A stretch of 34,870 nucleotides of DNA. It comes from Clostridium sp. (GTDB taxonomy: Bacteria; Bacillota; Clostridia; Clostridiales; Clostridiaceae). The notes under the pieces are model-generated. The model saw only the letters and a list, made by a program, of their open reading frames with translations, was not told where the DNA came from and ran no database searches. The stretch's first letter is position 1. Each line of letters opens with the position of its first letter. The position numbers were made by a program, and so were the translations under genes. Location of the stretch: assembly GCA_031292145.1 (NCBI GenBank), contig JARLHR010000057.1, forward strand, positions 1-34,870, read 5' to 3'. Positions 5,502 through 33,912 of the stretch are shown here, piece after piece.

Positions 5502-5567
5502 AAAATAAAGCAACAATCTTTATATAAAATGGTTCTGCCTATAAAAAATTAGGAACTATAAAACTTT

Positions 5568-5807
5568 AGGCACTAGAAAGAAAATAACAAGTAGAAGATG
5601 CGATGAGATGTTCTTATATGCAGAAAAGTTTCGTATTGCAGCATAGCTGCTCTTTTCATAGGTGCATAGCTGCTCTTTTTTAATGTGTATATTTTGTGTC
5701 AGGCAAGGAACTAAGGCTTGCTCATAGCGGGCTATTAGTGAGACTTAGCGACGAAGTATGACACAAAATAGACTAGCATACTGACTAATTATTTTTTAAT
5801 AGTGCCT
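5568..5807 (+). mobile_element. MITE-like element, copy 1 (about 240 bp)
   Basis: The ends are inverted repeats. The left begins AGGCACTAGAAAGAAAATAA and the right, read on the minus strand, begins AGGCACTATTAAAAAATAAT. Inside, module A (about 5595-5680) holds TTCTTATATGCAGAAAAG and then two GCATAGCTGC hairpins each followed by TCTTTT. Module B (about 5690-5770) is a long stem-loop closed by ATTTTGTGTCA / TGACACAAAAT with a conserved CTCATAGCGGGC loop region. There is no ORF, so mobility would depend on a transposase elsewhere. Copies 2 (11006) and 3 (13981) share the ends and modules. I see no clear target-site duplication. Confidence 0.75.
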
Positions 5808-6313
5808 TATATTCATATATATATGATTTTAATTGAAGCTGAATTAACCTTCTTATAAATAGATAGAACATGTTAATATTAATTTATTTGATAATTTTTA
5901 AAATCAAATAGAATGGCTAGGATAAAAATTTTTAATCCTAACCTTAAATATTTTATTATATAATACCAAAATATGCAGCCAAGAAATGGCTGCAAAAAAT
6001 ATAAAGTAGATTATGAGGATATCAGCATTTAAGGGATAAGCCGATATCTTTTACAACAACATTATAACATAATGCGACAATATCTTCTACACGTACCTAT
6101 AGTTTTTATTTATTTTTTAATTCATTAATAATAATTTCAATCTCTATAATTAAATATAAAAATCTATATTCCATTAATTATAGTCTAATTATATATACTT
6201 ATTTGTTCAATTCTTACATTTAAACTAAGATGTACGTTTTTTCAGCCTAAAGCTTAAAAACAAATTCTTTTTTAATTACATTTCCCCTTAGCTTTAATTA
6301 TATTAATGCTATA
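5808..6313. other. Intergenic region of about 500 bases, one hairpin
   Basis: I find no ORF with a ribosome site here. A hairpin at 5975-5993 (GCAGCCA / TGGCTGC, loop AGAAA) is followed on the minus strand by ATATTTTGG and could be a weak terminator. A GATATC pair at about 6020-6050 encloses a short AT-rich loop. The remainder is featureless AT-rich sequence. Confidence 0.5.
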
Positions 6314-6850
6314 CTATTTTACTTTTACTGGTCGCTTAAACAACAATACTACATCCTGCGGCCGAACATTAGGTTGAATTCCAGTAACATATTTTTGATC
6401 TCCAAAGTTAGGAAATGCCGTTTCCAGTTCCAGGTATGAGCTTACAAGTTCCCACCCATCTGCCCCTAATTCATTTAATTGTTCTTCAGATTGTTCAATT
6501 ATACTAAAATCACCTGCACCAGTTCCCATCCTATTACTTTTTGTTGATGGTGTTACTGTAACAGTTTTGTATTCCCACTTCTGTTCTTTTGTTACACCTA
6601 GAGAAGATCTTATTGATATAATTCCGTATAAAACCGTTAATATTAACAAAGCTAATAAAACACTTATTAATAAATTATATTTTTCTATTTTAATTTTAGG
6701 TTTATTATTTTGCTTATCTCCAAATCTTTCTATATTTATTTTAAGTTTCTTATTAGGTTTGCTTTCCGATACAATCGTATTTTCTTCCAATATAATTGTC
6801 TTTTCTAGTATTTCCTCCTTTTCTTTTTCACTTAAATAATTATTTTCCAT
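6314..6850 (-). CDS. Single-pass membrane protein with DUF4177-like domain
   Basis: I use the second ATG, at 6850 (178 residues), because GGGGGA lies just upstream of it, whereas the ATG at 6865 has no ribosome site. The first 60 residues are charged and hydrophilic. A single transmembrane helix follows at about 61-83 ('LLISVLLALLILTVLYGII'). The C-terminal domain has 'KWEYKTVTVT', 'EEQLNELGADGWELVS' and 'VVLLFKRP'. This W-E-Y-K / L-N-x-L-G-x-x-G-W-E-L-V / F-K-R pattern is that of DUF4177 proteins, whose role is unknown. Topology suggests an N-terminus inside and the domain outside. No neighbour gives a functional clue. Confidence 0.75.
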   Translation of the reverse strand: MENNYLSEKEKEEILEKTIILEENTIVSESKPNKKLKINIERFGDKQNNKPKIKIEKYNLLISVLLALLILTVLYGIISIRSSLGVTKEQKWEYKTVTVTPSTKSNRMGTGAGDFSIIEQSEEQLNELGADGWELVSSYLELETAFPNFGDQKYVTGIQPNVRPQDVVLLFKRPVKVK

Positions 6851-7056
6851 TAAAATTTCCCCCATATTTATTTATTTGTATATAATTGAACGGAATAAGT
6901 ATATATATTAACCATATATATATTACCATATTTTGGAACAAAACTCCATTTCTATTCCTTTAATACTTTCATTCTGTATTAATTTATATCTAAATCTATA
7001 ATATTATTGTATAAAAAACAACATCGAAATCGATTACAATATAATCCAATTAACTA

Positions 7057-7088
7057 TAAAATAAAACTTGAGATTTAATCTCAAGTTT
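7057..7088 (-). terminator. Terminator of the LDH-family gene
   Basis: A perfect 10-bp stem, AAACTTGAGA / TCTCAAGTTT at 7064-7088 with a 5-base loop, is followed on the minus strand by TTATTTTAT. It lies 33 bases after the stop codon at 7121. Confidence 0.85.
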
Positions 7089-7120
7089 ACTAGTTGATAT
7101 TTTTCTATTGATGAGACGTC

Positions 7121-8071
7121 TTATAATTTAAGCTTTCTATTATATTCCTTGATAATTCTAATAGACTTTTTTAATTCTACCATTTCATCATCTGATAAAT
7201 GATATTCAACAAGTTCTTTAACGCCTTCACTATTTAAAACTGCAGGTACTCCCACATATATACCATCTTCGCCATATTCACCATTAAGCATAGCAGAGAC
7301 AGGAATTACTTTATTTTCATCATGTAATACTGCTTTAATAATTTGAACAGTAGTTGCAGCAATTCCAAATGTAGTAGCGCCTTTTGCATTTACAATACGG
7401 TAAGCTATCATCTTTATATCTTCTGTTACAGAATCGGTATCAAATCCTTCTAGTCGCAATTTATTGTCATTAATAATATCTAAGAACTTCTTACCACCTA
7501 CTGTAATTTGACTCCATGGAATTATTTGTGAATCTCCATGTTCCCCCATGCATAAAGCATGAACACTTTGGGGATCAACACTCATAACATCTGCCAAATG
7601 ATATTTTAAACGTGCTGAATCTAATGCTGTACCTGTACCAATAACTTTGTTAGCTGGCAATCCTGAAAGCTTATGTACATAATACGACATAACATCTACA
7701 GGGTTAGTTATTACAACGATGATTCCAGAAAAACCACTTGCCATTATAGATGGTACAATACTATCCATTATACCTGCTGCTTTTTCAATCATATCTAATC
7801 TTGTTTGTCCTGTTATATATGGTAATGCTGCAGCAATTACAACTAAATCAGCATCTGCGCAATCTGCATATTGGCCATCTTTTACTCTCATCTTTCTTCC
7901 GCTATATCCAAGAGAATGCTGCAAGTCTGTTGCTTCAGCCCATGACTTTTCCTTATTGATATCAATTAGTATTAAATCATCACAAACATGATTCATTACT
8001 ATATCAAATGCTACTGCAGCTCCAACTGCTCCTGTTCCAACTACTACTACTTTGCTTCTACCAATTGCCAT
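7121..8071 (-). CDS. ldh: L-lactate dehydrogenase family 2-hydroxyacid dehydrogenase
   Basis: The ATG at 8071 is the start (316 residues), preceded by AAAGGA. The LDH/MDH fold is clear: 'GTGAVG' at 12-17 binds NAD(H), 'ITNPVD' at 121-126 follows, Asp151-Arg154 is 'TALDSARLKY', and the catalytic His178 is in 'MGEHGDS'. The reaction is expected to be NADH-dependent reduction of a 2-oxoacid such as pyruvate. The oddity is the substrate loop. Before the conserved Arg91 ('GQTRLD'), the residue that is Gln in lactate and Arg in malate dehydrogenases (six residues upstream) is Tyr85 in 'ALPYITGQTR'. The true substrate may therefore be another 2-oxoacid. The gene is monocistronic with its own terminator, and the gene symbol is only by family. 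Confidence 0.88.
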   Translation of the reverse strand: MAIGRSKVVVVGTGAVGAAVAFDIVMNHVCDDLILIDINKEKSWAEATDLQHSLGYSGRKMRVKDGQYADCADADLVVIAAALPYITGQTRLDMIEKAAGIMDSIVPSIMASGFSGIIVVITNPVDVMSYYVHKLSGLPANKVIGTGTALDSARLKYHLADVMSVDPQSVHALCMGEHGDSQIIPWSQITVGGKKFLDIINDNKLRLEGFDTDSVTEDIKMIAYRIVNAKGATTFGIAATTVQIIKAVLHDENKVIPVSAMLNGEYGEDGIYVGVPAVLNSEGVKELVEYHLSDDEMVELKKSIRIIKEYNRKLKL

Positions 8072-9027: not shown

Positions 9028-9963
9028 ATGACAAGAGCATTTATATTAGGAATAGCTGCATCCTTCTTTTTTGCATTTACTTTCATTCTTAATCAACAGA
9101 TGAATGTTTCTGGTGGCAGTTGGCTTTGGAGTTCATCACTTAGATATATTTTTATGTTACCCATTTTACTTACTATCATGATTATAAAAAATCAATTATT
9201 TGACGTATTGAATGATATAATTAAAAAACCTATTCAATGGATTATGTGGAGTACAGTCGGTTTTGGTTTATTTTATGCACCTTTAAGCTTTGCCTCAATA
9301 TATGGTGCCTCATGGTTAGTTGCAGGAACTTGGCAGATAACCATTATTGCTGGAGCCCTTATGTCTCCATTATTTTTTAGAACTATTGAAACAAAAAACG
9401 GAAACTATAAGGTAAGAAATGAAATCCCCAAGAAATCCATTCTAATTTCTGCAATAATTTTGCTAGGTATATTTTTAATGCAATATGTAGAGGCGGAAAA
9501 TATCTTTAGTTCTAAGACATTATTAGGTATTGTGCCAGTTATATTAGCTGCCTTTGCTTATCCACTTGGTAATCGTAAAATGATAGAAGTTTGTGATAAT
9601 AAATTTAACACATTCCAAAGAGTTTTTGGCATGACATTATGTAGCATTCCATTTTGGATACTCATATCAATCGCTGGTGTATTATCTGTTGGTCTGCCCA
9701 GTAATGGACAAATTCTACAATCTCTAATAGTCGCTGTTTTTTCCGGAATTATTGCGACAATACTATTTTTTAAAGCAACAGATATAGTAAGTCATGATAC
9801 GCATAAATTAGCAGTCATAGAATCAACTCAGTCTGGTGAAGTAATATTTACATTGCTTGGAGGAATACTCATATTTCATGATAAATCTCCAAGCTTAATT
9901 GGCATAATAGGAATAATCCTAGTGGTTACTGGAATGATTTTGAATAACCTCATTGATTCTTAA
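9028..9963 (+). CDS. EmrE-type multidrug resistance efflux transporter family protein (DMT superfamily)
   Basis: I choose the ATG at 9028 (311 residues), seven bases after AGGAG, over an ATG 42 bases earlier without a ribosome site. About ten hydrophobic segments span the protein. The first ('FILGIAASFFFAFTFILNQ') and the repeated 'GAS' loop ('FASIYGASWLVAGTWQITI') fit the drug/metabolite transporter superfamily, in the branch annotated as multidrug resistance efflux transporters. It acts in the cytoplasmic membrane, probably as a proton-coupled exporter; the substrate is unknown. Control by the divergent XRE-cupin regulator is likely, and a strong hairpin terminator follows the stop. Confidence 0.82.
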   Translation: MTRAFILGIAASFFFAFTFILNQQMNVSGGSWLWSSSLRYIFMLPILLTIMIIKNQLFDVLNDIIKKPIQWIMWSTVGFGLFYAPLSFASIYGASWLVAGTWQITIIAGALMSPLFFRTIETKNGNYKVRNEIPKKSILISAIILLGIFLMQYVEAENIFSSKTLLGIVPVILAAFAYPLGNRKMIEVCDNKFNTFQRVFGMTLCSIPFWILISIAGVLSVGLPSNGQILQSLIVAVFSGIIATILFFKATDIVSHDTHKLAVIESTQSGEVIFTLLGGILIFHDKSPSLIGIIGIILVVTGMILNNLIDS

Positions 9964-9968
9964 AAAAT

Positions 9969-10020
9969 TAAAAGTTAGATATGTTTTATATACGGCAAGC
10001 ATACCTGACTTTTAGTTTTA
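9969..10020 (+). terminator. Terminator of the EmrE-like transporter
   Basis: TAAAAGTTAGATATG at 9969-9983 pairs with CATACCTGACTTTTA at 10000-10014, with one internal mismatch and one wobble. GTTTTAG follows. Between here and the next gene at 10266 I see nothing further except that gene's AGGGAGAG ribosome site. Confidence 0.7.
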
Positions 10021-10265
10021 GTACATTCTATCTTTATATTTCATTACACTTACTCTTTAATTCCACGTGGTAATTATAATATAAACCTATTTTTCATTTT
10101 CTGCTGTTCCATTTTTTCTACTCTTGGCCTTCTTTTTTTGTTTTTAATAAATACGATGATAATATAAATTCACTTAAAAAGAAAATAGTGAAAAAATGAA
10201 ATCTATTGAATAAATTTATAATTTCAACTCAAACTAATCTTATAAATTAAGGGAGAGTTGATAAT

Positions 10266-10912: not shown

Positions 10913-11044
10913 ATGCATAAACATATCCATCCCAAAGCAAATCCAAAAATCCTTGAACATGTTTTAGAGAATCTTAATCATGTTACTAATTACGATTATA
11001 AAATAAGGCACATGAAAGAAAATAACAAGTCCAAAATGCCATGA
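10913..11044 (+). pseudogene. Short ORF running into a MITE copy, probably a truncated gene
   Basis: An ATG two bases after the phosphoribosyltransferase stop opens 43 codons. The first 31 ('MHKHIHPKANPKILEHVLEN', then NLNHVTNYDYK) look like ordinary protein. The rest is encoded by the terminal repeat of the element that begins at 11006. The element may have truncated a small gene in an operon with the phosphoribosyltransferase. I do not recognise the protein, and no continuation is visible past 11247. Confidence 0.35.
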
Positions 11045-11247
11045 TTATTTTTCATCAGACAAGGAAACAGATTGGTCTCATAGCGGGCCTATTAGGATAA
11101 TCTGCTGACGCAGTATGATGGAAAATGGGCACATTAGAAAAAAGCAGCTATGCACTTATGAAAAGAGCAGCTATGCTGCAATACGGAACTTTTCTGCATA
11201 TAAGAACTTTTCTAGCAGATGGACTTGTTATTTTTTTGAATATGCCT
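11006..11247 (-). mobile_element. MITE-like element, copy 2 (about 242 bp)
   Basis: The terminal inverted repeats are the best preserved of the three copies: left AGGCACATGAAAGAAAATAA, and right, read inward on the minus strand, AGGCATATTCAAAAAAATAA. Both continue CAAGTCC. Module A (CTGCATATAAGAAC and two AGCAGCTATGC units) is on the right, so the element is inverted relative to copy 1. Module B (about 11050-11130) keeps the same plus-strand orientation as in copy 1, so it is inverted relative to module A. Its stem is closed by TGATGAAAAAT-type sequence that differs from copy 1 but still pairs. Confidence 0.75.
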
Positions 11248-11255
11248 AACTTAAT

Positions 11256-11300: not shown

Positions 11301-11507
11301 TTATAGCCCTTGTTCATAACTTTCTATCATTCTCTTCACCATTTCTCCACCAACGCTTCCGTTTTGTCTTGAAGAAAGGTTTCCTTTATCTGTGCTTTCA
11401 TAATTTGATAATCCAATTTCTGATGCAACCTCGGTTTTTAATCTGTTTAAACCTGCCTTTGCTTCTGGTACTAAAGTTCTGTTTCTTCCACTATTGTTTG
11501 ATCCCAT
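11301..11507 (-). CDS. Alpha/beta-type small acid-soluble spore protein
   Basis: A 68-residue protein after a strong AAAGGAGG. It has the two family signatures: 'KTEVASEIGL', which includes the site cut by the germination protease GPR, and 'NGSVGGEMVKRMIESYEQ', the DNA-binding helix-turn region. These proteins coat spore DNA, hold it in an A-like form and protect it from UV, and later supply amino acids at germination. Expression is expected in the forespore under sigma-G, but I cannot mark a convincing promoter. Paralogues are usually scattered in the genome; this copy is flanked by a MITE-like element. Confidence 0.93.
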   Translation of the reverse strand: MGSNNSGRNRTLVPEAKAGLNRLKTEVASEIGLSNYESTDKGNLSSRQNGSVGGEMVKRMIESYEQGL

Positions 11508-11754: not shown

Positions 11755-13872
11755 TTAAAAATATATATCTGAAAATTCAATATCCACCGCTTCAGCACTA
11801 TTTTTTTCATAAAGTATGCGATTTTTCATTTCTTCAGACAATTTATGTTCTTTACTATCAAGAGGAAAAGTTAATAAAAATTCTGAACCATTATGAAGTT
11901 TACTTTTACATGTTATAGTTCCTTTTTGTAATTCTACAAGAGATTTAACAAGAGATAAACCTATTCCGCTACCTTCATTTTTTCTCGATAAGCTTGTATC
12001 AACTTTTTGGAATCTATCAAAAATTTTCTTCTGCATTTCTTCTGGTATTCCTATACCATCGTCCTTTACACTAATCGCTACATTTTGAGAATCCGGTTGA
12101 TAAATATAAATCTTAATAGTTCCATTTTCTTTTCCATACTTTACGGAATTTGATAATAAATTTAATATTATTCTTTCAACTAAATTAATATCGCAGTTAA
12201 TATATAATTCTTCCATTTCAGTGTCAAACACTAAATTCATTCTTTTATTCTCTACATAAGTCTTAATTGATAAGGTTATATCTTCAACTTCACTTACAAT
12301 GTTCTCCAGTTTAAATAATGGCTTAAAAAAACCTGCTTCTATTCTAGATATATCAATAATATTATTAACAAGCCTAATTAACCGTAGGCAGTTTTGCTTA
12401 ATTATTTTATTATATTTTGAAATGTTATCTACGCTTAAATTATCCTTATATACACTTTCTAACTGCAAGACAGAATAAATAACATTTAATGGTGTTCTCA
12501 GTTCATGAGAAATATTAGTAAAGAATTCACTTCTGGCCTCTAATAAAGAGTGTTCATTAATTACTTCCTTTTTATTATAATCAATACAGTTAGATAAGAT
12601 ATTTAATGCATTATAAATACATTTAGCCATAATTTTACAGGAATCGTAGCCGCATGCTAAGCAGTTAATATTTCTAGACTCCTCAGTTGGCTTATTCATT
12701 TTAATAAATATTTCATCATATTCTTCGTCAGAAGGTTCAATTATATCGTTAACAATAATACTGTTATCATATAGTCTTTTAAAATCCTTAAGTTTTAGTT
12801 CTTTATCAAAATACTCGTGTGACGAATCTGTTTTATTTAAAGTAACATCTTCACTATTATTTGCTTTTTTTTCATTTCTTAATTGATTTAACTTATAGTC
12901 AACTTCATCGATGTTAGCAAAATTTTTACACTTATTGCAAGTGCCTGTACCAAAATTACAACCATAAGAACAATTGAGTATATCTACCACTAACGGTACT
13001 TGTTTATTTTGTTTTAAATTATTGCTATAATCTTCAAGATAATTATAAGCATCCTTGGGTCCATTTATTTGTCTAATCCATGCATCCTTTATATATAATT
13101 CGATATTTTCCTTTAAGCCTCCTGGTCTACTAAAAAGAAAACCAAAATTACAATCTATATTATCATAATTATATTCATAGTAATTTGAGATATCTACATT
13201 GTTAGCTTCTAAATACTCTTCAATTTTTTTAAAGGTTACATTATATTTTACATAACTATAAGTATTTTTATCATCAATTTCATCCGCTTTTGACAAGCAT
13301 GGTGATAAAAATGCAATATCATCATCTATATTTGCATATTTCTTAATGTAAATAGCTACGCATAACATTGGACTATGTATAGGTGCAAGTTTATCGATTA
13401 GCTCTGGTTTATATTTTTGTATATAGTTTACAATTGAGGAGCATGGGTTAGCTATTATTGTATTTAAGCTGCCTTCTTTTAGTATTTTAGTATAGGCCCA
13501 AATAGCTATGTCAGCGCCAAAAGATACATCATAAATAAAGTTTACCCCTAGGCTTTTTAAGTAACCAAATAACTTTTTATATTCATGAAAATTTACCATA
13601 ATAGAAGGTGCAGCAATTATTGATATTTTCTTCCCCTTCAATAAATCTTCAAAAAATATTTCTGTATCATCTTTATAATATCTAGCCCCATGCTCACACC
13701 CCTTAATACATTCTCCGCAATGAATGCATCTTTCAGAGTTTACTTTTATTTTATTATTTCCATCAATAAGGTAAGCAATATTGGCACCTGGAACTGGACA
13801 ATTGCTAAGACACTTATTACAGCCTACACATTTTTCTTCATCTAAGTATATTCGTTCTACAAATTTGTACAT
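11755..13872 (-). CDS. Soluble [FeFe]-hydrogenase-like sensor histidine kinase
   Basis: A 705-residue protein with a strong AGGAGG site. Domains in order: two [4Fe-4S] ferredoxin motifs (Cys 15-18-21-25 and 49-52-55-59); an [FeFe]-hydrogenase H-cluster-like domain (about 80-320); a further four-cysteine Fe-S motif (Cys 404, 407, 412 and 429, with 418 also possible); then a kinase core with H-box 'NISHELRTP' (His456), N-box near Asn575, G1 'DDGIGIP' and G2 'GSGIGL'. The three H-cluster loops are recognisable: 'IIANPCSS' (Cys144), 'LSPCLSKADE' (Cys192, Lys195, Glu198) and 'NCSYGCNFGTG' (Cys301, Cys305). All four cluster ligands are kept, but the proton-transfer Cys of TSCCP is Pro143. No transmembrane segment is seen. 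It is probably a cytosolic H2 or redox sensor. No response regulator is adjacent, so the partner is unknown. Confidence 0.88.
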   Translation of the reverse strand: MYKFVERIYLDEEKCVGCNKCLSNCPVPGANIAYLIDGNNKIKVNSERCIHCGECIKGCEHGARYYKDDTEIFFEDLLKGKKISIIAAPSIMVNFHEYKKLFGYLKSLGVNFIYDVSFGADIAIWAYTKILKEGSLNTIIANPCSSIVNYIQKYKPELIDKLAPIHSPMLCVAIYIKKYANIDDDIAFLSPCLSKADEIDDKNTYSYVKYNVTFKKIEEYLEANNVDISNYYEYNYDNIDCNFGFLFSRPGGLKENIELYIKDAWIRQINGPKDAYNYLEDYSNNLKQNKQVPLVVDILNCSYGCNFGTGTCNKCKNFANIDEVDYKLNQLRNEKKANNSEDVTLNKTDSSHEYFDKELKLKDFKRLYDNSIIVNDIIEPSDEEYDEIFIKMNKPTEESRNINCLACGYDSCKIMAKCIYNALNILSNCIDYNKKEVINEHSLLEARSEFFTNISHELRTPLNVIYSVLQLESVYKDNLSVDNISKYNKIIKQNCLRLIRLVNNIIDISRIEAGFFKPLFKLENIVSEVEDITLSIKTYVENKRMNLVFDTEMEELYINCDINLVERIILNLLSNSVKYGKENGTIKIYIYQPDSQNVAISVKDDGIGIPEEMQKKIFDRFQKVDTSLSRKNEGSGIGLSLVKSLVELQKGTITCKSKLHNGSEFLLTFPLDSKEHKLSEEMKNRILYEKNSAEAVDIEFSDIYF

Positions 13873-13980: not shown

Positions 13981-14156
13981 ACGACATATTCAAAAAATAG
14001 CAAGTCAGTGAGCTAGCTATTCTATTTTGTGTCATACATCCTTGTCTGACGCAAAATAGACACATTAAAAAGAGCAGCTATGCTGCAATACGAAACTTTT
14101 CTGCATATAAGAACATCTCATCGCATCTTTGACTTGTTATTTTCTTTCATATGCCT
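13981..14156 (-). mobile_element. MITE-like element, copy 3 (about 176 bp, internally shortened)
   Basis: Terminal repeats: left ACGACATATTCAAAAAATAG, right (minus strand) AGGCATATGAAAGAAAATAA, both continuing CAAGTC. Module A (CTGCATATAAGAACATCTCA and GCAGCTATGCTGC) lies on the right, so the copy is inverted relative to copy 1 and has only one of the two hairpin units. Module B is reduced to its closing stem, TATTTTGTGTCA / TGACGCAAAATA with a short loop. It lies about 110 bases upstream of the sensor kinase start, between the kinase and its likely upstream promoter region. Confidence 0.72.
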
Positions 14157-14577
14157 AAATATAAATAATAAAATGTTTTTTTAATTACTATTACTAAATC
14201 TTTTTTCTTATGATATATACTTTTTACATCCTTTACATAATCTATGAACTTAATTACAAGTAAACATTCATAAAATACAAACCATAACTTTAATAATATG
14301 ATTTTTTTTAGAATAGTGCTAACCTATATACATTTTATATATAATATTTAACAATTTAAAACTTGTAAAATGTCCCATTGATTAATGCGTTAAAATTAAT
14401 TAATTTTAACTTTATTAATATAAATTCTACATCGACATACTATTATAGCATATTTTGTTAAAATTGTGTTAATTAAATTTATTTTTTTATTGCTTTTTTT
14501 CCATATTATACTTCTAGATCATATTTATATTTTATATAACCTCTTTAAATCAATTAAAAAGTGTAGGTGTGCAATTT
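14157..14577. other. AT-rich intergenic region with a 22-bp perfect palindrome
   Basis: No supported gene. At 14389-14410 an uninterrupted palindrome begins GTTAAAATTAA and continues with its exact complement. It has no T-tract on either side, so it looks more like a protein-binding site or cruciform than a terminator. It is 168 bases past the histidine-phosphatase stop. Confidence 0.5.
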
Positions 14578-30506: not shown

Positions 30507-31205
30507 TTAGTAATCTACCAATCTATATCCAACTCCAACTTCTGTATAAATATACTGGGGTTCAGCTGGATTCTTTTCAATTTTTCTTCTAAGGCTTGCC
30601 ATAAAAACTCTAAGGGACTGAGTTTCATTTCCAACTGCAGTTCCCCAAATTTCGCGGATAATAAAATTGTGAGTTAGCACTTTTCCTGAATACTGGCAAA
30701 GAAGAGCCATTATTTTATATTCTATAGGAGTTAAATGTATATCTTCAGTATCTATAATTACTTTTCTTTTATTAAAATCTACAATTAAATCTTTCACTTT
30801 AAAAGTATCCATATTCTTATTCTCACTAGTATTTACTGTACTATGCCTTAATGATACTCTAATTCTAGCTAATAATTCTCCGATTCCAAAAGGCTTTGTC
30901 AGATAATCATCTGCTCCTTTATCTAAAGCCTCTATTTTCTGTCTTTCATTTTCTCTTGCTGAAACAATTATTATAGGAATTTTAGACCATTCTCTGACAC
31001 TCGAAATAACACCAATTCCATCCATATCCGGAAGTCCTAAATCTAATATTATTAAATCTGGCTTATGTGACATTGAAAGTGCTATAGCTTCCATTCCTTT
31101 GTCAGTTTCAATAAAGTTAAATCCTTGTGCTTTTAAAGCTGTTATTATGAAATTCCTTATAGGCTTATCATCTTCCACAACAAGAATATATGGCTTATTG
31201 TCCAT
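30507..31205 (-). CDS. kdpE: KdpE response regulator
   Basis: The start is the ATG at 31205 (232 residues), with AAAGGAGG upstream inside the end of kdpD; the reading frame extends further up but has no ribosome site there. The receiver domain has the acidic pair at 11-13 ('VVEDD'), the phosphorylation site Asp55 ('LIILDLGLPDMDG'), 'IPIIIVSA' and Lys in 'DYLTKPFG'. The C-terminal OmpR/PhoB winged helix ends 'SLRVFMASLRRKIEKNPAEP' and 'YIYTEVGVGYRLVDY'. KdpE activates the high-affinity K+ uptake ATPase genes kdpABC when phosphorylated by KdpD. It overlaps kdpD by 11 bases, so the two are translated together. Confidence 0.95.
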   Translation of the reverse strand: MDNKPYILVVEDDKPIRNFIITALKAQGFNFIETDKGMEAIALSMSHKPDLIILDLGLPDMDGIGVISSVREWSKIPIIIVSARENERQKIEALDKGADDYLTKPFGIGELLARIRVSLRHSTVNTSENKNMDTFKVKDLIVDFNKRKVIIDTEDIHLTPIEYKIMALLCQYSGKVLTHNFIIREIWGTAVGNETQSLRVFMASLRRKIEKNPAEPQYIYTEVGVGYRLVDY

Positions 31206-33912
31206 TAACGTTGTCCTCCTTTGGAATATTAAACTTAAAAATAGCTCCTCCTTTGTTATCTCTGTTATGAGCACTAATCATTCCACCATGTGCTTCTACT
31301 ATTGATCTGCAAATTGCAAGACCTAAACCAACTCCCCGTCTAGAATCTGATATTTTATTTCCATTAGTAAAAAATCTATCAAATATATGCGGTAATATGT
31401 CTTCTGATATTCCCATACCATTATCAATTACTTCAAAAATGATATTTTGCTCTTCCTCATATACTTTAACTTCAATTAAAGAACCTTTAGGTGTAAACTT
31501 GATGGCATTGTCAAATAGATTTATGAGTACTTGTTCAATTAAACTTCCATCCATTGGCGCCATTATAACATCTTCCGGTACTGTTACTTTTATTTTATTG
31601 TCTTTAAATCGTTTTGAAGTCCTTTGAACTGCTTCATATACTACTTCTTCTACAAGCTCCAGGTTCTTTTTAATTTTCATGTTTCCTCCATCGAATCTTG
31701 TCATACTAAGCAAGTTTTCTACTAATCTAATAAGCCATTCAGTATCATCATAAACACTTTGAAGTAGTTCTCCTTTAGTTTTTTCTGATATAAGATCACC
31801 TGTTTCAATAATAGTACTGACAGCACCCTTAATACCTGCAAGTGGACTCCTTAAATCATGAGAAATTGACCTTAATAGATTACTTCTAAGCCTTTCACTT
31901 TCAATTTCTAAATTAGACTTCTTTTGAGTTTCAGCTAAGATTTCTCTATCTAGTGCAATATATATTTGACTAGCAACTGTTTCAAAAGTAAATTTTTGTT
32001 CAGGTTTTAAAGGTCCATTAATACATGAGATACCTAATACCCCTAATATTTTTCCATGGCTTTTTAAAGGCATATAATATCCTTTTGCTCCATAAAAGGT
32101 ATTAGTTCCAGTTCCTGATTCCTTATCATTTAAAAATGTCCAATAAGCAACAGCCTCTTCATCTTTATTTAGTAAAGTTCTATCTTTTTCACCTTTAGTG
32201 GCAGTATAAATAAATGGAGTTGAAAGTTTATTTTCTTGTTCTAAATAGCAGATAACAGTTCTTTCTAATAGCCTTGATAAATATTTTATCCCTATTCCTA
32301 CAACATCTGCAGTACCTGTTGCACTTAACAATTTTTTGCTTACCCTGTATAAATTTCTTGTTCTATTTTCTCTTTGTGAAGAATTAAGTGCTTCTCTTTG
32401 TATTTTATTTGTAAGTGTACCAATTGTAAAAGTTACTATTAACATTATCGGAAATGTTGCTAAATAGCTTTTATCATAAACCTCTAGAGAATACCGTGGA
32501 GCTGTAAAAAGGTAATTAAACAAAAATATACTTACAATTGACCAAATAAAACCTAAAATATATCCTCTTGTTTTAATATTTACAATAATAACACCCAAGA
32601 TAAAAATCATAATGACATTAGCATCATTAAAACCCAAATAATCAATAAATAAAGAAATTATTGTAGTAATTAGCATTATTAAACTGGATATTAAAATTTC
32701 TTTCTTTGACACATTGAATTTTTGCTTATTCTTTTTTATAGTATATTTTTTATCGTTATCATAAGCTGCATTTGGTATAACGTAAACATCTATATAAGAG
32801 TTAGATTCCATAAGTTTATCAACTATATCTCTAGCATAAAAATGAAATAAGTTATCTGGTTTTTTATGATTTTTACCTATAATAATTTTAGTTACATTTC
32901 TAAATTTCGCATATTCAATTATCTGTTCAATAATATTATCACTATATACAGTTACTACTTCTCCGCCTAACTGTTCAGCTAAAGCAAAATTTACATTTAA
33001 TCGTTCTCTATCTTCCTTACTTAAATTTCGCGTTTTTGTTGTTTCAACATAAAATGCTATCCATTTTGAATGATGTGCTTCAGCCATTCGTGTAGCTGTT
33101 CTTATAACTCTGGAAGATGAGGGTGATGGAGAAATACAGGCAAGCACTGCATCTGATGTTGGCATTACACTTATCTGCCCTTTTGATAGTCTTACACTCT
33201 CAACTTCATATTTTACCCTATCTGCTGTTCTTCTTAAAGCTATTTCTCTAAGGGCAAATAAGTTATTTTTAGTGAAAAAGTTATTAAAAGCTTTTCTTGT
33301 CTGCTCTTTGCCATAAACTTTTCCCTCACTAAATCTATTAAGAAGCTCATCTGGTTCAATATCGATTAATTCTACTTTATCGGCTTCATCAAATACCTTA
33401 TCTGGAATTGTTTCTCTTACAGCAATATGAGTTATACTTTCAACTATATCATTTAAACTTTCAATATGCTGAACATTTAAAGTGGTATAAACATCTATTC
33501 CAGCCTCTAAAAGTTCCTCGATATCCTGCCATCTTTTTCTATGCCTTTCAGTTCTAGCATTAGTGTGGGCAAGTTCATCTACTAATATTATCTGAGGTTT
33601 TCTAGCAAGAGCCTTATCTAAATCAAATTCCTTTAAAGTTATTCCTTTATAATTAATAACTTTAACTCCTATATCTTCAATTCCACTTACTAAAGCCATA
33701 GTTTCTGGCCTAGCATGAGGTTCTACATAACCAATTACAATATCCTTACCCATCTTTTTCATATCATGAGCTTCCATAAGCATAGTATAGCTTTTCCCTA
33801 CCCCTGCTGCATAACCAAAAAATATTTTTAATTTTCCTTTTGTAGATTCATTTTCTTCTTTTTTTATTTGATTTAAAAGATAATCTGGATTTGGTCTCTT
33901 ATCAATATCTAT
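31195..33912 (-). CDS. kdpD: KdpD osmosensitive K+ channel sensor histidine kinase, with non-standard start
   Basis: Full length is 905 codons if read from ATA at 33912, eight bases after AAGGAG and directly after an in-frame TAA. There is no ATG, GTG or TTG before Met44 (33783). Starting at Met44 would remove the Walker A loop 'GYAAGVGKS' (33-41). Domains: KdpD N-terminal ATP-binding domain with 'IILVDELAHTNA', a universal-stress-protein domain (about 250-370), four membrane helices (about 400-510), a GAF domain, the phosphoacceptor H-box 'LRSISHDLRSPLAGI', N-box 'NLFDNAIKF' and G boxes 'DNGMGI' and 'GVGLGLAICRSI'. It senses low K+ and phosphorylates KdpE. Unless ATA or the following ATT works as a start, the intact protein would not be made. 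Confidence 0.93.
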   Translation of the reverse strand: MDIDKRPNPDYLLNQIKKEENESTKGKLKIFFGYAAGVGKSYTMLMEAHDMKKMGKDIVIGYVEPHARPETMALVSGIEDIGVKVINYKGITLKEFDLDKALARKPQIILVDELAHTNARTERHRKRWQDIEELLEAGIDVYTTLNVQHIESLNDIVESITHIAVRETIPDKVFDEADKVELIDIEPDELLNRFSEGKVYGKEQTRKAFNNFFTKNNLFALREIALRRTADRVKYEVESVRLSKGQISVMPTSDAVLACISPSPSSSRVIRTATRMAEAHHSKWIAFYVETTKTRNLSKEDRERLNVNFALAEQLGGEVVTVYSDNIIEQIIEYAKFRNVTKIIIGKNHKKPDNLFHFYARDIVDKLMESNSYIDVYVIPNAAYDNDKKYTIKKNKQKFNVSKKEILISSLIMLITTIISLFIDYLGFNDANVIMIFILGVIIVNIKTRGYILGFIWSIVSIFLFNYLFTAPRYSLEVYDKSYLATFPIMLIVTFTIGTLTNKIQREALNSSQRENRTRNLYRVSKKLLSATGTADVVGIGIKYLSRLLERTVICYLEQENKLSTPFIYTATKGEKDRTLLNKDEEAVAYWTFLNDKESGTGTNTFYGAKGYYMPLKSHGKILGVLGISCINGPLKPEQKFTFETVASQIYIALDREILAETQKKSNLEIESERLRSNLLRSISHDLRSPLAGIKGAVSTIIETGDLISEKTKGELLQSVYDDTEWLIRLVENLLSMTRFDGGNMKIKKNLELVEEVVYEAVQRTSKRFKDNKIKVTVPEDVIMAPMDGSLIEQVLINLFDNAIKFTPKGSLIEVKVYEEEQNIIFEVIDNGMGISEDILPHIFDRFFTNGNKISDSRRGVGLGLAICRSIVEAHGGMISAHNRDNKGGAIFKFNIPKEDNVNGQ

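Follow-up and report, generated by a model that had tools for sequence, protein, structure and literature searches.

A sensor histidine kinase with a [FeFe]-hydrogenase-type input domain is encoded in the genome of Clostridium sp. (GCA_031292145.1) on contig JARLHR010000057.1. The window is the whole analysed stretch of this contig, 34,870 nucleotides long; the sensor gene lies on its minus strand, and its open reading frame has exactly the limits given in the original prediction, which had been made from the sequence alone. The alignments indicate that all ligands of the H-cluster are retained and the known proton path is discarded; the trees indicate that, on a sensor cassette found in many genomes, a chemoreceptor output gave way to the kinase. 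We propose a group C-type sensor kinase with an H-cluster made by HydEFG, responding to H2 or a low-potential redox signal, derived from a chemoreceptor and performing phosphotransfer directly to Spo0A; in its entirety this reading has, in our view, an even chance of being correct.

Domain structure of the sensor

The gene and the parts of its product have the following positions in the window:

11755..13872, minus strand: whole gene, a soluble sensor histidine kinase of 705 amino acids (open reading frame and translation)
13684..13851, minus strand: two [4Fe-4S] ferredoxin motifs, residues 8-63 (C15, C18, C21, C25; C49, C52, C55, C59), by Pfam Fer4_10/Fer4_7 and cysteine columns occupied in 80-82 of 82 sequences
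12949..13632, minus strand: H-domain, Fe_hyd_lg_C PF02906, residues 81-308, 99.5 bits (cut-off 22.1), with alignment to 7p5h and conservation
12586..12663, minus strand: C-terminal [4Fe-4S] motif Cx2Cx4Cx16C, residues 404-429 (C404, C407, C412, C429), the four cysteines in 82 of 82 sequences
12538..12585, minus strand: short linker, residues 430-445, where kinase and chemoreceptor versions diverge (junction alignment of 8 kinase and 8 other versions)
12331..12537, minus strand: HisKA dimerisation and phosphoacceptor domain PF00512, residues 446-514, with His456 at 12505-12507
11857..12192, minus strand: HATPase_c ATP-binding domain PF02518, residues 561-672, 92.9 bits
11758..11784, minus strand: C-terminal peptide DIEFSDIYF, common to the kinase subfamily (comparison with sister kinases)

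Two ferredoxin clusters, a third Fe-S motif and a full cytosolic kinase had been predicted, and all were recovered by Pfam and by the conserved cysteine columns. The C-terminal Cx2Cx4Cx16C is a published motif of the sensory groups C and D (PMC8163306). In the window sensor itself the Pfam FeS model PF04060 stayed short of E 0.001, though 21 of the 35 members of alignment A2 (described below) passed this threshold. From C429 to the phosphoacceptor His456 the distance is only 27 residues. At E 0.001 the Pfam scan detected no PAS domain in the window sensor; PAS is present in the sigma-54 versions of the cassette and in the hybrid kinase L146.

Conserved ligands and lost proton path

Conservation was counted in 82 unique sensor sequences including that of the window; the partial frames L094, L163, G369:C244 and G489:C98, as well as G285:C63 and repeat copies of loci, were omitted, and the duplicate G161 was merged. 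C144, C192, C301, C305 and K195 were found in all 82 sequences and E198 in 81, a conservation that, judged on these sequences, is not due to chance. K195 and E198 of the second loop are also retained in all eight PF02906 paralogs of the own genome. A profile of 12 rows matched the solved structure of Thermotoga maritima HydA (7p5h) with 118.7 bits and CpI entries with about 99 bits. In the profile alignment ANPCSS corresponds to TSCCP, SPCLSK to MPCxxK and DILNCSYGC to EVMACxxxC; the third loop was aligned in 7p5h only, as the CpI matches stop before it. The alignments to paralogs and solved hydrogenases thus place C144, C192, C301 and C305, together with K195 and E198, at the H-cluster site of the H-domain. 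The original prediction had named these four cysteines, the lysine and the glutamate, and had asked whether the cysteines might fall outside the H-cluster pocket; the alignment with the solved hydrogenases puts them in the three H-cluster motifs.

The proton path is altered at several positions (CpI numbering from the literature). Position 143, the counterpart of the proton-transferring C299, is Pro in 78 sequences, Thr in three and Ser in one, and never Cys. Position 163, which in our own reading of the alignment corresponds to S319, is Ala in 52 and Ser in 19 of the 82 sequences, with Ala163 in the window sensor; by the same reading Ala126/Tyr127 stand where the group A-like paralogs have two glutamates. 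At position 190 (M353) Ser occurs 77 times, Gly four times and Thr once, and at position 299 (M497) Leu 79 times, Phe twice and Ser once; the window sensor has Ser190 and Leu299. The exchange of the proton-shuttling cysteine for Pro143 was correctly predicted, but it marks the sensory class rather than this protein in particular. Of the HydDB sensory sequences, 17 % retain Cys at the position of C299, while about 43 % have Ala and about 10 % each Pro and Ser; at M353 Gly occurs in 51 %, Ser in 32 % and Thr in 17 % (PMC10055695). Among 18 other group C-like rows of our tree, position 143 was Pro in eleven and Cys in two. Loss of the proton-transfer cysteine is a known trait of group C and D sensory hydrogenases, and the view that it is peculiar to the window protein was rejected. 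A catalytic hydrogenase that incidentally carries a kinase would also have intact H-cluster ligands, yet C299, the E279 region, S319, M353 and M497 are all changed in the window sensor and in most of the family (19 of 82 sequences have Ser at position 163), and no hydrogenase subunit genes were seen beside the sensor in the window; we consider this explanation highly improbable.

Assignment to the sensory group C

By its motifs the window sensor, a cytosolic histidine kinase, fits group C of the sensory [FeFe]-hydrogenases. In an H-domain tree of 87 rows, calculated by a quick method with support from the Shimodaira-Hasegawa-like approximate likelihood ratio test (SH-aLRT) without bootstrap, the 32 cassette rows stood together (SH-aLRT 100) inside the rows sharing the C-terminal cluster motif (93). 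The group C-like and D-like labels in this tree were assigned from motifs, the tree being one without named references such as TmHydS. Three group D-like rows branched apart: L227 and L228 (both with GGE, SACP and TPC) and L229 (GGE). Ser190 and Leu299 had suggested membership in group D; this was rejected, since the sensor lacks E252, the proton relay of group D, and the group D-like rows stand on a separate branch. In place of GGE, the context of E252 taken from primer sequences in PMC10407848, the window sensor reads GGL, with Leu at position 253 in 80 of 82 sequences.

The closest described systems share parts of this architecture. TmHydS of T. maritima (group C) likewise has two [4Fe-4S] clusters, an H-domain, a C-terminal cluster and no proton-transfer cysteine (A131), but differs by a PAS domain, which the literature gives for group C, and by Gly/Ser at M353/M497, where the window sensor has Ser190/Leu299, a fused kinase and no PAS (PMC10055695). 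TamHydS of Thermoanaerobacter mathranii (group D) resembles the window sensor in Ser/Leu at M353/M497, in the C-terminal Cx2Cx4Cx16C and in the lack of PAS; it differs in E252 (Leu253 in the window sensor), in the separate position of the group D-like branch and in having no fused kinase (PMC8163306, PMC11803613). The nearest named relative is Clostridium sp. bin.369, at 73 %.

Putative sensory hydrogenases of this kind are already known: the HydDB label C1 (histidine kinase-linked) fits the window sensor and C2 (chemotactic) its nearest relatives (PMC5037454). New are the range of outputs and their history. HydDB treats C1 and C2 as separate subtypes, whereas here the kinase form is nested within chemoreceptor forms; and the part of the HydDB table available lists no sigma-54, GGDEF or CheX outputs for [FeFe] enzymes, a diguanylate cyclase-linked type being given only for [NiFe] 2c (PMC5037454). 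A counterpart of the phosphatase-linked subtype C3 (PMC5037454) is also present in the same genome: the second sensory hydrogenase hyd49, with a PAS domain (L225:4336-6081, contig C212), overlaps a gene for a SpoIIE-type phosphatase (6065-7258) as a C3-like pair. Unlike the window sensor, hyd49 retains Cys at the proton-transfer position.

Exchange of the output domain

Across 225 genomes of the order, 35 places with E<1e-80 were found, in 32 genomes. Alignment A2 comprised 35 proteins, namely 34 of these places (the partial G100 was left out) and L032. Their outputs were the signalling domain of methyl-accepting chemotaxis proteins (MCP) in 25 cases, HisKA plus HATPase in nine and neither in one (L079). 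Eight of the nine kinases, of about 705 amino acids and 67-100 % identity, formed one clade; the ninth (L111) stands apart as a hybrid kinase that also contains a receiver. In a tree of 32 rows with bootstrap, the kinase clade was supported by bootstrap/SH-aLRT values of 100/100 and joined with six MCP versions at 96/96. A kinase and an MCP copy occur side by side in each of two genomes, G023 and G047. The kinase form is nested among chemoreceptor versions, thus the output appears to have been exchanged on a widely shared cassette; that the nearest relatives of the window sensor carry a chemoreceptor output is, on these sequences, a new observation. The junction lies directly after the C-terminal cluster: both types share a sequence like NCIDYNKKEV and then diverge. 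One MCP-type version (L079, genome G194) is spread over two overlapping frames, L109:8276-9829 and 9816-10163, and is probably a broken or mis-assembled gene.

The range of outputs widened in a phylum sample of 398 genomes. Thirty members scanned together comprised 16 MCP, eight sigma-54 activators with HTH_8 and six HATPase proteins, four of the latter with HisKA and two with CheX. Among ten further members scanned singly, three had MCP, two HisKA-HATPase and two a hybrid kinase that includes a receiver; GGDEF, sigma-54 and CheX each occurred once. No output family was detected at E 0.001 in nine of nine Oscillospiraceae versions, which were labelled 'none'. On a tree of 82 rows, eight output labels required eight changes, the possible minimum being seven; L079 was labelled MCP in it despite the missing MCP match, its end running on in the second frame. 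The cassette is found with chemoreceptors, histidine kinases, sigma-54 activators, GGDEF (diguanylate cyclase) and CheX, and also with hybrid kinases. Among the open-literature matches listed, no [FeFe] sensor fused to a sigma-54, GGDEF or CheX output is described. We tentatively suggest a plug-in H2 or redox cassette (two [4Fe-4S], H-domain, [4Fe-4S], proton path removed) to which at least five kinds of output have become attached, with a swap from chemoreceptor to Spo0A kinase in one Clostridium lineage; this generalisation is somewhat more likely to fail than to hold.

Maturases and the nature of the cofactor

The original prediction would have fallen with an organism lacking the H-cluster maturases. 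HydE, HydF and HydG were all found in the host genome by profile search above the curated cut-offs, besides eight other PF02906 proteins. Among 78 cassette-bearing genomes, 62 had HydG above the cut-off and 68 had HydF; for the genomes with the kinase type the numbers were eight and seven of eight. In two lineages the cassette is located in hydEFG gene runs: G280 and G319 have the order hydE-hydG-hydF, group C-like sensor, cassette, a 385 aa gene and a catalytic-type hydrogenase, and G435 the order hydG-hydE-hydF-cassette. These are distant versions of about 43 and 36 % identity, but their gene context connects the cassette with H-cluster biology. In the other 13 of 16 fetched stretches no HydE/F/G gene adjoined the cassette; in G253 HydG was about 7.6 kb away.

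The H-domain may instead hold a [4Fe-4S] cubane only, without the diiron subsite, the protein then being a kinase that senses redox state or oxygen through iron-sulphur clusters. The window H-domain is the lowest-scoring of the nine PF02906 matches of the genome, which weighs against the proposed full H-cluster. The following observations weigh against it too and speak for the cubane. Leu299 stands at the M497 position, and the exchange M497L in CpI led to loss of the properly integrated diiron site (PMC10055695), although this objection is tempered by TamHydS, which natively has Leu there (PMC8163306, PMC11803613). No known proton relay is left, the group D relay E252 being Leu253. HydG above the cut-off is missing in 16 of the 78 cassette genomes, five of them 99-100 % complete and with HydE and HydF, and G511 has the cassette without HydE/F/G or another PF02906 match. 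On the other hand, K195 and E198 are kept almost without exception, these second-loop residues are found in all eight paralogs too, and cassette genes stand beside hydEFG in two lineages. Fifteen of the 16 genomes without HydG carry another, higher-scoring PF02906 protein, so that missing maturases were not accepted as proof of an H-cluster-free sensor; the absence may reflect gaps, detection limits or another route. The cubane-only sensor is unlikely in our judgement. As a separate observation, G001, G138, G147, G148, G150 and G629 combine PF02906 proteins, HydE and HydF with no HydG above the cut-off, five of the six being 99-100 % complete.

A full H-cluster could also serve a physiological signal other than H2, either CO or the ferredoxin/NADH redox state. 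CO binds H-clusters, both ferredoxin clusters are retained in nearly all of the 82 sequences, and the cell has eight other hydrogenase-family proteins. Against this stands H2-dependent regulation in R. albus, for which action through a group C sensor has been proposed (PMC6776011). We hold CO or the ferredoxin/NADH pool to be a rather improbable signal, slightly less so than the cubane-only sensor, and retain H2 bound at a full H-cluster as the preferred reading.

The kinase half and its candidate target Spo0A

No response regulator gene adjoins the sensor gene, as had been predicted; 17 kb separate it from the closest receiver of the contig, which has a KdpD-like kinase as its neighbour. This kinase and the adjoining receiver gene occupy 30507-33783 of the window (minus strand), near the contig end. 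With the KdpE receiver as query, no receiver gene was found in the fetched stretches around the eight kinase-type genes save that of the window at 17 kb; some of these contigs measure 7.3-10.5 kb, and the single query, which found receivers in other loci, could miss divergent ones. An operon partner was not found either: neighbour families recurred in three of the eight kinase-type loci at most.

The kinase half belongs to a subfamily ending in IEFSD[IV]Y or close variants, as seen in ten of ten sister kinases fetched from the own genome and 22 of 23 loci from other genomes, the 23rd being aligned short of the C-terminal end. The peptide is possibly a docking motif, to judge from its conservation. 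Proteins with this tail (L217-L224, L226, L008-L030) are mostly orphan clostridial kinases with unrelated inputs (PAS, GAF, PocR, Cache). In the own genome 28 subfamily places were scored; of the 13 listed, that of the window included, ten were more than 7 kb from a receiver above the cut-off or on a receiver-free contig, although one of these, on C272, contains within its own frame a receiver-like match below the cut-off, and some are near a contig end. Two of the remaining places were fused to a receiver and one was 292 bp from a receiver.

Specificity residues were read at positions which we take to be +7, +8, +11, +12, +14 and +15 from the phosphoacceptor His, set by the letters of KinA. 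At these the window sensor reads NVSVQL and the kinase clade NVSVQ[LM] (8/8). Spo0A is encoded in the host genome (434 bits, cut-off 200), and its first helix reads N-EF-I-DY, in our spacing, where C. acetobutylicum has NEFIDYD. Six specificity residues are published for Spo0A kinases of C. acetobutylicum: CA_C0323 has NVSAQV, CA_C0903 NISAQL and CA_C3319 SVGLQL (PMC6136694). The window sensor shares four of six residues with each of the first two, which are verified direct Spo0A kinases and likewise orphan HisKA kinases; compared by these residues only, they differ in that the available part of PMC6136694 (Table 1) mentions no hydrogenase-type input in them. Several sister kinases read NVSAQL or NVSAQM at the chosen positions, agreeing in kind with the published NVSAQV.

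An unlinked response regulator other than Spo0A may be the phosphorylation target, and we rate this chance as considerable, if a little short of even. The genome has 75 receiver matches above the cut-off, and the match to the verified kinases is four and not six of six residues. Two facts count against Spo0A: CA_C3319, a further Spo0A kinase of C. acetobutylicum, has a different code, and N[VI]S[AS]Q occupies the first five positions in only three of ten sister kinases of the own genome and seven of 21 of other genomes, the rest varying (NICSKV, NIGTKI and AVSGQL among them). Spo0A is favoured by the retention of NVSVQ[LM] in all eight kinase-type sensors, by the ten of 13 listed places distant from receivers, which fit a common distant target, and by the deviating codes of the KdpD-like kinase (AGGAST) and of the hybrids (NAGMEM, NAGMSI, TSGFRM). 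The suggestion of an orphan kinase acting on Spo0A has thus held for the orphan state and gained some support from the specificity residues, but the sister codes vary.

Proposed mechanism

The H-domain most likely holds a full H-cluster built by the HydEFG of the cell. Since the catalytic proton path is gone (Pro143, Ala126/Tyr127, Ala163), H2 would be bound or very slowly turned over, with the H-cluster and both ferredoxin clusters possibly reporting H2 pressure and the low-potential redox state. The signal would run via the C-terminal [4Fe-4S] domain and the short linker into the HisKA dimer helices and raise or lower the autophosphorylation of His456; the phosphoryl group would then pass directly to Spo0A. 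As to its origin, an ancestral H-domain receptor probably had its chemoreceptor part replaced by an orphan Spo0A-type kinase. A difficulty arises at the C-terminal cluster. In TamHydS, H2 alters the secondary structure, but a 2026 study argues against reduction of the C-terminal cluster (PMC13104023), which clouds the signalling role of this cluster. As H2 does not reduce it in TamHydS, we prefer a mechanical over an electronic signal at the C-terminal cluster of the window sensor.

Other features of the window

A gene for an alpha/beta-type small acid-soluble spore protein (11301-11507, minus strand, PF00269, 94 bits) is located 247 bp downstream of the sensor gene on the same strand; the host is probably a spore-former. 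A dispersed palindromic repeat resembling a miniature inverted-repeat transposable element occurs at 5565-5695, 10998-11255 and 14039-14163, so that the sensor gene lies between copies. Elsewhere in the genome there are similar copies, of which one (L059 1282-1408) directly precedes hydG on its upstream side; relatives have short matches in L097, L102 and L104. Rfam and tRNA scans of the window gave no matches, and a promoter scan was uninformative (28 sites, 28.3 expected).

Significance

For want of direct physiological evidence, PMC8924675 still regards a sensory role of [FeFe]-hydrogenases as putative. In the window sensor input and kinase are united in one chain, which makes the route from the H-cluster to the output directly testable. 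The same sensor cassette serves outputs for swimming or gene control in close relatives. If Spo0A is indeed the target, H2 pressure or electron pressure would be wired directly into the decision on sporulation and solventogenesis.

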